A stretch of 43,999 bases of DNA from Eggerthellaceae bacterium (GTDB taxonomy: Bacteria; Actinomycetota; Coriobacteriia; Coriobacteriales; Eggerthellaceae), in assembly GCA_017434045.1 (NCBI GenBank), contig JAFRGA010000085.1, forward strand, positions 1-43,999, in the 5' to 3' direction. This document shows, piece by piece, positions 6,616 to 27,148 of this stretch; the stretch's first letter is position 1, and every line of letters starts with the position of its first letter. Under the pieces are notes generated by a model. That model was not told the DNA's origin, did no database searches, and saw only the letters and a program-made list of their open reading frames with translations. Position numbers and translations under genes: made by a program.

Positions 6616-6983
6616 GGGGGCGACTGGTTTCGACATGGTGGGTCTGAGGTGAGGAGCAGGTCGTGGTCTCCTTTCCACGCTAAACAGGGGTACTGTCAAA
6701 ATTAATTGGCAACAAGACTTTTGCTGGGCGTCAGTACGCCCTCGCCGCATAACATAAGTCGGCGCGTCAATTCCGGGTGCTTCCCCGCCCCGGTTGCGAT
6801 GTCATTCTAGGGGAATGCTCTTGCGCACGTAGCCGGTATGGCGCAAGCTAAGACAGAACCGACTCGGGGCAGCAACGCACGTCGTTGCGCTGCGCCGCCC
6901 TTAAACCCGAGCAACGACTAAGCTTGTAGAGCCTGACCAGGGACTCAGTATGGACCGGAGTTCGATTCTCCGCGCCTCCACCA
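6616..6983 (+). ncRNA. ssrA: transfer-messenger RNA (tmRNA)
   Basis: Rescues ribosomes stalled on broken mRNA and tags the nascent chain for proteolysis. The 5' end GGGGGCGACTGGTTTCGACA and the 3' end TTCGATTCTCCGCGCCTCC plus ACCA form the tRNA-like half (acceptor GGGGGCG with CGCCTCC). The tag frame runs 6708-6752 and encodes GNKTFAGRQYALAA, with resume codon GGC and a TAA stop; the ALAA end is the usual protease signal. CCA is encoded. A strong terminator follows. Its partner gene smpB is upstream on the same strand and rnr, whose product degrades tagged mRNAs, is nearby. Confidence 0.97.
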
Positions 6984-6990
6984 CTCATTC

Positions 6991-7023
6991 AGGCGCCGTT
7001 CTGACGAACGGCGCCTTGCTTTT
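6991..7023 (+). terminator. rho-independent terminator of ssrA
   Basis: Perfect 11-base stem AGGCGCCGTTC (6991-7001) with 7006-7016 around loop TGAC, followed by TGCTTTT. Confidence 0.85.
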
Positions 7024-7025
7024 CC

Positions 7026-7136
7026 GCTGAGGGCTTTCATGGCATGCCATCTTTCGCCTTGTTTTGGGCACGGCGCGTACCAAAGTACGCTTGGCCCAAA
7101 GGCGGCGAAATCTGGCGCGCCATGAAAACCCTCAGC
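7026..7136. repeat. long imperfect palindrome between ssrA and the rnr operon
   Basis: The two arms, about 52-55 bases each, meet at a perfect centre GCGTAC-CAAA-GTACGC (7075-7090) and are otherwise about 80-85% complementary with short gaps. Shared outer sequence is GCTGAGGG and shared inner blocks include TTTCATGGC, TTTCGCC and TTTGGGC. It lies between the convergent ssrA and rnr units. The remaining 7137-7354 holds no credible gene; it includes another perfect 10-base inverted repeat, GAAAACGATC (7246-7255) with 7259-7268. Confidence 0.85.
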
Positions 7137-7354
7137 TGCTTTTCCTGGTACGGTTGGGCCACTTTGATCGGGCGACGGCCCCCGCTCCATTCGTGGCTCC
7201 GGCGCGGAGAATGCCCCTCAGCTGAAGCTTCGGGGCCTTTGCGCTGAAAACGATCATCGATCGTTTTCGCGGCGCTGCGCGCCGCCGCGCAAGCCCCCGT
7301 GCCTCAACCACGCTTCCGAGCTCCGTTCCAACGAGTAGGCCGTGCATTACCGCA

Positions 7355-8242
7355 CTACTCTTTGACCTTTAGGGCCCCTTTGAGCCTCTCCGCGCGATAC
7401 CCCTTTGCATTGGCGTTGTTCATTTGGACATGCGTGTGGTTTCCGCCGACGCCTTCGGGCGTATAGAAGAAAAGCTGCACGTCAATCAGGTCTTTTTGAA
7501 TGTCGCGTATATGACTGATCTCGGTGACGCCGGCCTCCACATGATCGCCAGCTTTCACGAGCGGATCGGCCGTATGCAGGAGCACGCAATCTAAATCGGG
7601 CTTGCCGTCAGGTTGGATATGAATCCGTATGTCAGGCACTTCGTCATACAGCTTGTAGTCCTGCACCAAGACGACCGTCCCCGATATAGGAGACCTCACA
7701 ATCGTCCCGGCGGCGGCACCGACGTCTATAGAGGTGTCCATGGGGGTCGTATCGCTCGTTCTCCATATGTGCAGGGCGTCTGCATCGAGCCATTCGCCCT
7801 CAACCTGCTCGTGGTTGATGCGCGTATTACGTTCGTTCAGGGCTTTTGTAGGATCTGCTTCCGGCAGTTTCGTCTCCATCACGAGCGCGTAATCATACGA
7901 CGCTTGATGGAATAAAACTCCCGTCAAATCCGCAGGTCGTATCGGGCAATGGATATCCACGCCTTCCACCTGTGCAATCAGCGGCGTCTGGCTCTTGCGA
8001 AGCTTCTCCAGCCGCTGTTCTTCCAGCTCGGCTTCAGTTAGCGTCGGATCCCCGACGCCGCCGAACAAAACGTCATCGGAGCGATTCTCGCCGCTGTAAG
8101 CCACTTTCTCCGATTGCTGTAATCCAAGCACCTCGAGCACGGGCGCCGCGAAGGGCGGCTTCACGGTGATGACTATGGAACAGAGGCTCACGATCAACAC
8201 AACGATCGAAAGAGCCAGCACTACCACGCTTCTCGCGTTCAT
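7355..8242 (-). CDS. membrane-anchored M23-like (LytM-fold) protein, probably degenerate
   Basis: A 295-residue protein with an N-terminal signal anchor (VVVLALSIVVLIVSLCSIVITV), a charged linker (EAELEEQRLEKLRK), and a C-terminal beta-rich domain resembling peptidase M23: DVGAAAGTIVRSPISGTVVLV, then VLLHTADPLVKAGDHVEAGVTEI and finally GNHTHVQM. The last motif keeps the H-x-H of M23 enzymes. The usual first zinc motif H-x-G-x-D appears as DTSID, so its His is missing and catalysis is doubtful. Non-catalytic LytM proteins are known to act as regulators of cell-wall amidases. It overlaps rnr by four bases (ATGA) and is the last gene of the ftsE-ftsX-S41-rnr set, which fits a cell-wall role. Function is inferred. 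Confidence 0.72.
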   Translation of the reverse strand: MNARSVVVLALSIVVLIVSLCSIVITVKPPFAAPVLEVLGLQQSEKVAYSGENRSDDVLFGGVGDPTLTEAELEEQRLEKLRKSQTPLIAQVEGVDIHCPIRPADLTGVLFHQASYDYALVMETKLPEADPTKALNERNTRINHEQVEGEWLDADALHIWRTSDTTPMDTSIDVGAAAGTIVRSPISGTVVLVQDYKLYDEVPDIRIHIQPDGKPDLDCVLLHTADPLVKAGDHVEAGVTEISHIRDIQKDLIDVQLFFYTPEGVGGNHTHVQMNNANAKGYRAERLKGALKVKE

Positions 8243-10470
8243 TTTGCCAACCTAAATCGTAACCTTTGCGCTCTTCTGTGCGCTTCAACCAACTGAACAG
8301 CTATATGCTTGCCCAGCCGGTATTGACGTCCCGTATCAGCGCCGGTGAGCGTATGCCTGGTCGCATCGAGCGCGAAATACTCGTGGCCCAAATCCGCCAC
8401 CTCGACCACGCCTTCGGCAGTGTTCTCCAAACGCACGAAGAGGCCGAACGAAGCCACGCCCGTGATGATGGCCGAGAACCTCTGGCCGACACTCGACTCC
8501 ATCAACTCGACGATCTTCACCTCTTGCGACTCGCTTGCAGCCCGCTCCGCAATGCGCTCCATCTCGGAAGAGTGTTCGGCTATCCAGGTGAGGTTCTTCA
8601 CTTCCTGGTCAAATTTCTGCGGACGGCCAAGGAGGCTCGCCCTCAACATGCGATGAACGACCAAATCGGGATAACGCCTGATAGGTGATGTGAAATGAGC
8701 GTATGCATCACTTGCGAGCGCGTAGTGGGCACCGAGTTCCGATTCGTAGAGCGCCCGCTTCATCGAACGCAACACCAGCGTCGTCACAAGCGCGCCCTCG
8801 TCGCGTCCCGAGCACTCCTCGAGCACGCGCGCAATCGCATGTGGGTTTCCGGCAACGAACGAGCGGGAATCCACGTCCTTGAACCAGGAAAACTCCTGCA
8901 AAACGGGCAGAAGCCCGGCGAGGCTCTCGCGGGAAGGCTTGTCGTGAGTTCGATATATGCACGGAAAGCCGGCGTCGCGTAGATAGCGTGCCACTGACTC
9001 GTTCGCGGCAATCATCGCCTCTTCGATGAGCTGGGTCGCATCGGTTCTCTTGCGAAGCTCTATGGAGACGGGCGCCCCCTCGCCATCGAGCTTGACCTTC
9101 GCTTCAACCGTATCGAAATCGATTCCCCCGGCCGCTTCGCGAAGCGCCATCCGCTTCTTGGCCAAAGTGGAAAGCTCTCGGACGCACGACTTCAGCTTGT
9201 AGGCGAGATCGCCCCGCACATCGCCCAACTGGCTGTCGCCGTCGATGAGGCCTTGGGCCTCATCGTACGTAAGGCGCGCCTTCGACGAGATGAGCGCCGG
9301 ATACACGTCAACATCCAAGACGCGCCCCTCGTCATCGAGCAACAGGTCGACGGTCATCGTGCGTCGCGTCTCGTTCGGCTTGAGCGAGCAAACCTCGTTG
9401 GACAGCGCCTCGGGCAACATCGGTATAACCCGATCGACCAGGTACACGCTCGTCGCCCTGCGCAGTGCATCCAGGTCGACCGACGATCCCCACGGCACGT
9501 AGTGGGAGACATCCGCGATATGCACTCCCAACCGCCATCCATTTGTTCCGTCGTCATTACCCGAGGGGCCTAACCTGTTCTCACCAGGAAGCGAGGGCTC
9601 CTGCGCTTCGCCGTTGCCACCCGCGGAGTCTGGCCTTTCCCCACCAGATAGCGAGGGCGCCTGTGATGCCCCAGATTGGCGTGAGGACGAGGCGAAGCGG
9701 CCTTCGGGCCGAGAGCCGAGTCCGGAGCGCCAAGATGGGGTATCACAGGCGTCCGCAGCGTGCAGTGTTCCGTCGTTTGTAAAAACGACGGAACAAATAG
9801 ACACTGCGTCGTCGAAGTCGCGCGCATCGGCTGGGTCTATCGTGAAGACGAACCGATCTCGCAAGTCCTTGTAGCCGCTGGACAAAGCGCCATCGACATC
9901 CACTTGCGCTTCGGCCGCCTGCTCGAGGGCGCCCTGGGAGAAAGCCGTTTCCAGCTTGTATCGCGCGACGATCAGGTCGACAGGCACGCGTTCATCGTCG
10001 AAATCGCCAAGCACCTCGACAACCCGACCCGCGGCTGCCTCTTTCCTGCTCGGGTACGTCTCGATGGCAACACGGACAATGGCGCCGTCGGGCACGCTTG
10101 CGCTTTCGGAACGCAACGTGAAGATGTCGTAAGGAATACGGGGGTCCTCCGGAACCACCACCCCGAAGGGCTCGGCCACCTCGTAACGCCCGATTATCTC
10201 AGGGTGGGCGTGCTCGATAACGCGCTTCACGCGCGCTTCGCGCTTGCGCGTCGAGGACGCCGCACGTGCCAAGGCTTTCTTCGAGCGTTCCTGGCGAGCA
10301 GGAGAAACCTCCACCATATCGCCATCGAACGCGCCGTTCAGCTTGTCGAAGGGGATGAAGAACTCGCCTTCGGCGGTTTTCACGAAGCCGTATCCGCCAC
10401 GTGTTATGGCCAAAAGGCCGCGGGGGTATTCATACGCTGTCGGGCGGGTGTTTGAACGATTGCGCGCCAT
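8239..10470 (-). CDS. rnr: ribonuclease R family exoribonuclease with a repeat-built insertion
   Basis: Processive 3'-to-5' exoribonuclease of the RNB family, which degrades structured RNA and, with tmRNA-SmpB, non-stop mRNA. Order in the 743-residue product: N-terminal cold-shock-like domain (RGGYGFVKTAEGEFFIPFDKL), a second OB region, the RNB catalytic domain with TIDPADARDFDDAV (metal-binding Asp cluster, about 206-223) and HIADVSHYV, then HFTSPIRRYPDL VVHR, and a C-terminal S1 domain (AIITGVASFGLFVRLENTAEGVV). Between DDAV and GWRLGVHIADV, where the family usually has about eight residues, there are about 87 (I225-N310 and neighbours), rich in Ser, Gly, Pro and Arg. At DNA level this is a repeat element (9541-9798). 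Four bases separate it from the S41 gene; it overlaps the next gene by ATGA. The enzyme call is firm; the effect of the insertion is unknown. Confidence 0.95.
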   Translation of the reverse strand: MARNRSNTRPTAYEYPRGLLAITRGGYGFVKTAEGEFFIPFDKLNGAFDGDMVEVSPARQERSKKALARAASSTRKREARVKRVIEHAHPEIIGRYEVAEPFGVVVPEDPRIPYDIFTLRSESASVPDGAIVRVAIETYPSRKEAAAGRVVEVLGDFDDERVPVDLIVARYKLETAFSQGALEQAAEAQVDVDGALSSGYKDLRDRFVFTIDPADARDFDDAVSICSVVFTNDGTLHAADACDTPSWRSGLGSRPEGRFASSSRQSGASQAPSLSGGERPDSAGGNGEAQEPSLPGENRLGPSGNDDGTNGWRLGVHIADVSHYVPWGSSVDLDALRRATSVYLVDRVIPMLPEALSNEVCSLKPNETRRTMTVDLLLDDEGRVLDVDVYPALISSKARLTYDEAQGLIDGDSQLGDVRGDLAYKLKSCVRELSTLAKKRMALREAAGGIDFDTVEAKVKLDGEGAPVSIELRKRTDATQLIEEAMIAANESVARYLRDAGFPCIYRTHDKPSRESLAGLLPVLQEFSWFKDVDSRSFVAGNPHAIARVLEECSGRDEGALVTTLVLRSMKRALYESELGAHYALASDAYAHFTSPIRRYPDLVVHRMLRASLLGRPQKFDQEVKNLTWIAEHSSEMERIAERAASESQEVKIVELMESSVGQRFSAIITGVASFGLFVRLENTAEGVVEVADLGHEYFALDATRHTLTGADTGRQYRLGKHIAVQLVEAHRRAQRLRFRLAK
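9541..9798. repeat. coding palindromic insertion inside rnr
   Basis: 258 bases, exactly 86 codons, bounded by perfect 14-base terminal inverted repeats ATTTGTTCCGTCGT (9541-9554) and its complement (9785-9798). Inside are a 24-base inverted pair (9658-9681 with 9728-9751, 21 of 24 matching) and a perfect 13-base hairpin (9766-9778 with 9783-9795). Two imperfect direct repeats also lie inside (about 9567-9605 and 9632-9666), sharing CACCAG and AAGCGAGGG or TAGCGAGGG. It stays open in the rnr frame. Origin by insertion of a mobile or dispersed palindromic element is inference. Confidence 0.85.
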
Positions 10471-26976: not shown

Positions 26977-27064
26977 CTAACCGTGCGCTACCGTTTCAAA
27001 ATCATGATAGCCGCAGGTCGAGGAAAAACCAGCGAGCGGAAGCGATACGCGCCATATAGACACG

Positions 27065-27106
27065 AAAGTCCGCCGACACGTACTTCACGTACGCGAGGCG
27101 GACTTT
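27065..27106 (-). terminator. hairpin between rpmA and obgE
   Basis: AAAGTCCGCC (27065-27074) pairs perfectly with 27097-27106, with an inner CGTAC/GTACG pair. On the minus strand the 3' arm ends in TTT. It may reduce read-through into obgE. Confidence 0.5.
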
Positions 27107-27148
27107 GAGTGGCTGGCTGGCGCTTATCGCTTTCGCGCAGCAGCGGTA

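Follow-up and report, generated by a model that had tools for sequence, protein, structure and literature searches.

The ribonuclease R gene rnr of this uncultured Eggerthellaceae bacterium raises the question of how a stretch of 86 codons built from repeats came to lie, in frame, within a conserved enzyme gene. In the window, by which we mean the whole 43,999-nt stretch of DNA analyzed, rnr occupies positions 8239 to 10470 on the minus strand and encodes 743 aa; its frame is open across the insert (9541-9798, minus strand), and its product scored 629.7 bits against the NCBIfam model RNase_R (TIGR02063; cut-off, 597.85). The sequence-only reading had described an in-frame insert of this length with perfect 14-base terminal inverted repeats, a 24-base inner inverted pair, tandem direct repeats, and strong mRNA folding, at a place where RNase R homologues have about eight residues. 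The outermost 14 nt (9541-9554 and 9785-9798) were indeed inverted repeats without a mismatch, and the direct repeat was confirmed (54 nt with 60-nt spacing, 72% identity). The RNA of the 258-nt insert was predicted to fold at -129.2 kcal/mol (z = -6.9), with none of 200 shuffles equally low. The inner pair was real but proved to be 27 nt long and only 85% complementary (9655-9681 and 9728-9754), its pairing being broken by conserved mismatches. The figure of eight residues was true of some homologues only: between the motifs DDAV and GVHIADV, the window's rnr has 91 residues and same-genus relatives mostly 11 to 20, with 78 in G012, 72 in G008, and 36 in G013. We consider it very likely (probability of about 0.85) that a mobile palindromic element of the Coriobacteriia is present here as an inherited, in-frame copy, with the limit that there is no transcript or protein evidence.

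The insert belongs to an interspersed repeat family that is strongly structured and unannotated. When a 281-nt segment was compared with its own genome by BLAST, many unrelated loci were matched, with E values down to 7.7e-15. Thirteen cores of about 115 nt were aligned, and their common fold was one long imperfect hairpin with mismatches at constant places. The family core is thus a 115-nt imperfect hairpin of fixed length with the conserved ends ACGCTGCG...CTCGCT, and in rnr it occupies positions 9650 to 9764 on the minus strand (covariance model R1, 116.7 bits, E 2.3e-24). The rnr copies were themselves among the seeds of this model; the BLAST matches to other loci are independent of it. 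The covariance model found 33 copies in the window's genome (G000, a metagenome assembly of a gut or rumen organism, 2.2 Mb and 77% complete); in the relatives set, 31 of the 61 genomes had copies, with a maximum of 34 per genome. The family was also present in 120 of 298 genomes of a Coriobacteriia sample, and within one genus the copy number ranged from 0 to 33, close relatives differing strongly. Other copies in the window lie at 27031-27146 on the minus strand, 38 nt past the rpmA stop codon and ahead of obgE, where G009 has a copy at the same place, and, more weakly matched, at 7021-7137 on the plus strand, just downstream of the tmRNA gene (6616-6983) and its terminator-like hairpin. In an alignment of 104 distinct copies, 93.4% of the pair cells were paired, against 34.6 to 40.7% when the partner was slid, the covariation score was 0.627, against 0.058 to 0.098 for the slid controls, and double changes were seen in 28 of the 31 pairs. 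The alignment had been fitted to the covariance model, which favors structure; the slid controls were drawn from the same alignment. An Rfam 15 search with 13 element loci returned no family match, only tRNA and sub-threshold chance matches, and we found no report of the family in the literature on repeats of Eggerthella, Collinsella, and Coriobacteria, our coverage of which was incomplete.

The anatomy of the rnr insert shows that the mobile unit is the 115-nt core and not the 258 bases between the 14-nt arms, so that the unit boundaries claimed earlier failed. Upstream of the core in the reading direction stands a 30-nt hairpin, hairpin A (9766-9795, minus strand), with 13-bp arms TGTTCCGTCGTTT and AAACGACGGAACA and codons that read SVVFTNDGT. 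Its position relative to the core is that of the terminator-like hairpins at intergenic copies. On the other side of the core is a 3' tail region (9555-9649, minus strand) that has grown through a tandem duplication of 60 nt (copies at 9559-9612 and 9619-9672), and repeat analysis showed that the insert is closed by a second occurrence of hairpin A's right arm (ACGACGGAACA; 9544-9554, minus strand). The 14-nt arms of the insert thus derive from hairpin A, the right arm of which recurs at the far end.

The placement of the family was surveyed with 108 copies from seven same-genus genomes, the genes being called by a codon model. Where a gene lay within 250 nt upstream, 79 copies were co-directional with it and 6 were not, and 51 of the 79 started 28 to 42 nt past the stop codon, the gap between stop codon and core being taken up by a hairpin roughly 30 nt long. 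In the 42 nt upstream, 93 of 106 copies had a stem of 9 bp or more, compared with 11 of 106 downstream (p 2.6e-32), and some of these upstream hairpins, behind tRNA genes, were evident terminators with T runs. In G008 and G014, cores 93 to 100% identical (e.g., 100%, 99%, and 97%) were found at different loci, with unrelated hairpins and flanks. Because near-identical cores stand behind unrelated hairpins, the copied unit is the core with a tail of about 20 nt, the hairpin in front being mostly local, although hairpin and core may on occasion have moved jointly, since some copies share related hairpins. For 11 gene clusters, among them groEL, rpmA-obgE, and greA-lysS, at least two species have the element at the same 3' place; many of the copies are therefore old, and others are recent. 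Inspection by eye revealed no target-site duplication in the flanks of recent copies, for which there was no strain-level empty site for comparison.

An alignment of rnr across relatives showed the segment to be present in some and absent in others, and a segment conserved in all relatives without DNA repeats, which the sequence-only reading had named as its refutation, was not found. In the rnr of G012 (Eggerthellaceae UBA3686), a sister species, the element stands at the identical codon and in the same frame, and directly past the core, 16 of 17 bases are identical to those of G000 with one gap, in a sequence unlike the usual tail. Since codon, frame, and these post-core bases are shared, a single inherited insertion is the simplest reading and a likely one. 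A local-alignment shuffle test of the post-core match, which ignored position, gave 22, whereas shuffles reached up to 24; this test is weak, and the argument for inheritance therefore rests on the fixed register. The two rnr cores are only 73% identical and are not mutual nearest neighbors within the family (ranks 2 and 16), and for this reason, the core may have been replaced by gene conversion, or two copies may have landed separately at the site.

The synonymous difference between G000 and G012 was 0.41 in the insert, compared with 0.77 and 0.69 in the flanks (Fisher p 1.4e-6), whereas the amino-acid change was higher in the insert (0.28) than in the flanks (0.13 to 0.17). Between the two cores, 5 pairs had changed on both sides and were still paired, and 2 pairs had been lost. 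This pattern is consistent with constraint on the nucleic acid and relaxed constraint on the peptide. A similar picture could also arise from gene conversion by other copies, from a later separate landing, or from palindrome-templated mutation, the last of which may also produce compensating changes without selection.

The rnr loop has received two palindromic families among three species. In G008 (Coriobacteriaceae SIG38), the 72 residues at the site include a 34-nt inverted repeat at 88%, and this insert is a copy of a different palindromic family, of which G008 holds about 40 copies and the window's genome five clear ones. The second family (L118:10694-10843, L336-L355) has a core of about 100 nt that is conserved and predicted to form three hairpins, and its outer stem, of 12 to 35 pairs in the 20 copies read, varies in sequence from copy to copy with almost perfect pairing; an Rfam search with this family gave no match. 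Separately, G021, from another genus, has no core at the insertion site of its rnr (L041) but a hairpin-like stretch (GATCCTGTCGTTTTGACGAACGGCGAAATC), which might be the ancestral target or a remnant.

A second in-frame copy was found in the aconitase gene of the same genome (954 aa; L198:870-3734, G000:C63, minus strand), and rnr and aconitase are the only in-gene cases among the 33 copies. The aconitase of G000 has 88 residues between fixed motifs, compared with 18 to 52 in 22 relatives, and the repeat was absent from the aconitase of all 22 relatives compared. Read in the frame used in rnr, the element encodes SAVLANGGTADAAAS in aconitase and SVVFTNDGTLHAADA in rnr. Hairpin A lies next to the core in both genes, which is a further hint that the two may at times move as one. 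Both sites are loops of naturally varying length, and ahead of the aconitase copy is a second, truncated element start (hairpin plus CGACGCTGCGGCTTC). We considered the common frame as a sign of selection and dropped it: 45% of the other copies are open in that frame, a count that covers hairpin A plus the core, and both remaining sense frames do equally well or better.

An AlphaFold2 model of the RNase R, built with 18 homologues, had a mean pLDDT of 83.6, and its fold matched RNase R on the degrading 30S subunit (8cdu) and E. coli RNase R (5xgu). The pLDDT fell below 50 only at the N-terminus and at residues 241 to 306, which correspond to core and tail, while residues 221 to 230 and 236 to 238, encoded in part by hairpin A, were modeled as strands. 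It had been suggested that the peptide forms an exposed loop beside the RNA channel; the model shows only a disordered stretch flanked by two RNB-domain strands, and proximity to the channel is inferred. That RNase R tolerates a disordered loop is the simplest reading of this prediction, with translation and activity being inferred. A predicted tryptic peptide of the insert is, for example, QSGASQAPSLSGGER.

Our proposed explanation is that the family spreads as the 115-nt imperfect hairpin with its tail of about 20 nt and settles directly 3' of stem-loops, mostly terminator hairpins behind genes. The settling pattern is shown; that an enzyme recognizing stem-loops places the element is inferred. 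A copy would have landed in rnr in the ancestor of G000 and G012, beside a hairpin-forming stretch within the codons of a surface loop between two RNB-domain strands; the shared position and frame are shown, and the ancestral hairpin is inferred. The element could be translated there because many copies of the family have no stop codons in that frame, and it would have persisted as a disordered loop that is tolerated or neutral, for which the open frame and the disorder prediction are shown and translation and activity are inferred. The 60-nt duplication of the tail would have been gained later in the G000 lineage. The retention of the hairpin with paired changes and few synonymous differences suggests, by inference, that it probably still acts at the DNA or RNA level, in the way of the intergenic copies, for which we infer a role as REP-like structured blocks at mRNA 3' ends.

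Other explanations of the insert fared less well. If it were a lineage-specific loop selected for its peptide, with repeats that arose by local duplication, then the variation of loop length across the protein family (11 to 91 residues) and the 60-nt duplication within the loop would be accounted for. However, the same core stands at dozens of intergenic loci, which refutes this reading for the core, and the insert's higher amino-acid and lower synonymous change relative to its flanks are the opposite of peptide selection, so that we regard it as very unlikely. Also very unlikely is that the insert is removed after transcription or bypassed by the ribosome, from GACGGAACA to GACGGAACA (222 nt, in frame). 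Identical in-frame codons GAC GGA ACA at 9774-9766 and 9552-9544, beside a hairpin, speak for such a bypass, but this codon repeat is a consequence of the palindrome, aconitase has GGC there, G012 is without a matching pair, and there is no stop codon to force a bypass.

The remaining rival, an immobile structured RNA for 3'-UTR processing or termination that was simply inherited, with the rnr copy relocated by chance recombination, deserves more weight and is still unlikely. It is supported by the orthologous 3' sites of the 11 gene clusters across species and by the strict length, sense orientation, and covariation of the family. Against it are the near-identical cores with unrelated flanks at unrelated loci of G008 and G014, the clean gain in aconitase, and the spread of copy numbers from 0 to 33 within one genus.

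For the mobile element that we prefer, no mobilizing enzyme was identified. A RAYT/IS200 mobilizer was rejected, as Y1_Tnp was missing in 7 of the 15 genomes with at least 10 copies and its relation to copy number was weak (Spearman 0.23, p 0.075). The terminator target had pointed to a reverse transcriptase or group IIC intron, but this candidate did not track copy number either, with the RT domain missing in 9 of these 15 high-copy genomes, and was likewise set aside. Both absences are weakened by the incompleteness of the assemblies. An integron attC site, considered for its length and post-stop position, was dropped after inspection, as the element ends lack attC core motifs.

The closest known counterpart is the Rickettsia palindromic element (RPE), and the earlier suggestion of an RPE-like coding palindrome in an actinobacterium held, given the 33 copies, the aconitase copy, and the presence or absence of the segment among rnr orthologues. 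RPEs are palindromic repeats of 100 to 150 nt, mostly intergenic, some of which are translated within conserved proteins or lie in tmRNA, and 19 Rickettsia reading frames have been reported to contain them (PMC2229807, PMC3733652); in R. conorii, RPEs have the tetranucleotide CGTC at one end (PMC3733652). The Coriobacteriia family is similarly a multicopy palindrome found in frame in unrelated conserved genes. However, it belongs to another phylum, has a fixed core in sense orientation 3' of terminator hairpins, ends with (A)CGCTG and CTCGCT and has no CGTC, and provides 2 in-gene cases among the 33 copies of G000 as opposed to the 19 frames of Rickettsia. By analogy, then, it works like an RPE without being one.

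REP/BIME sequences with RAYT lie downstream of genes as imperfect hairpins that are probably transcribed, sometimes within genes, and the recB genes of two Xanthomonas species contain different REPs at about the same site (PMC3733652). Our family shares the downstream position, the imperfect hairpin, and the occasional place within genes, but its core exceeds the 20- to 40-nt REP hairpin about three- to fivefold in length, GTAG is at neither of its ends, and the Y1 transposase is absent from the 7 high-copy genomes noted above. Bacterial MITEs such as NEMIS, RUP, ERIC, and YPAL are small, non-autonomous, and strongly folding, with some frames fused to genes (PMC2229807). The Coriobacteriia element is also non-autonomous and amplified at unrelated loci, with cores up to 100% identical, but neither IS-type terminal inverted repeats nor a target duplication was recognized, and its target is a stem-loop, not a short sequence. 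The likeness to group IIC introns, which insert in sense orientation on the 3' side of terminator stem-loops, is confined to target choice, as our element has no intron ribozyme and most of its high-copy hosts (9 of 15) lack a reverse transcriptase domain.

REPs and MITEs within genes are known from Proteobacteria (PMC2229807, PMC3733652), and the building of proteins from palindromic repeats had until now been a matter of Rickettsia and some of these proteobacterial cases. The same process now appears in a class of actinobacteria that is common in the gut and the rumen, by way of an undescribed repeat family, and the clear insertion preference 3' of terminator hairpins makes the mobilizing enzyme searchable. 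With two palindromic families in three species, the rnr loop offers a natural test of how repeats turn into loops of a protein and whether a hairpin is able to keep its function when it lies within coding sequence. A bolder reading, which we offer tentatively and would not yet favor, is that the family represents a new kind of class-wide mobile palindrome that seeks DNA or RNA stem-loops such as terminators and lands 3' of them via an unknown enzyme. Hairpin-forming coding stretches would then be recurrent entry points, through which enzyme loops such as that of RNase R may be rebuilt by different palindromic families with the hairpin still working at the nucleic-acid level in the coding sequence.

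Some minor observations concern the arrangement of copies elsewhere. Tandem pairs of the element at L067, L068, and L285 have a period of about 165 nt, which equals the core plus a 50-nt tail, at the end of which the right arm of the upstream hairpin recurs. On the G008 contigs C22, C28, C16, and C30, the copies on one contig are nearly all on the same strand, a bias that may reflect orientation along the replichore or with leading-strand genes.
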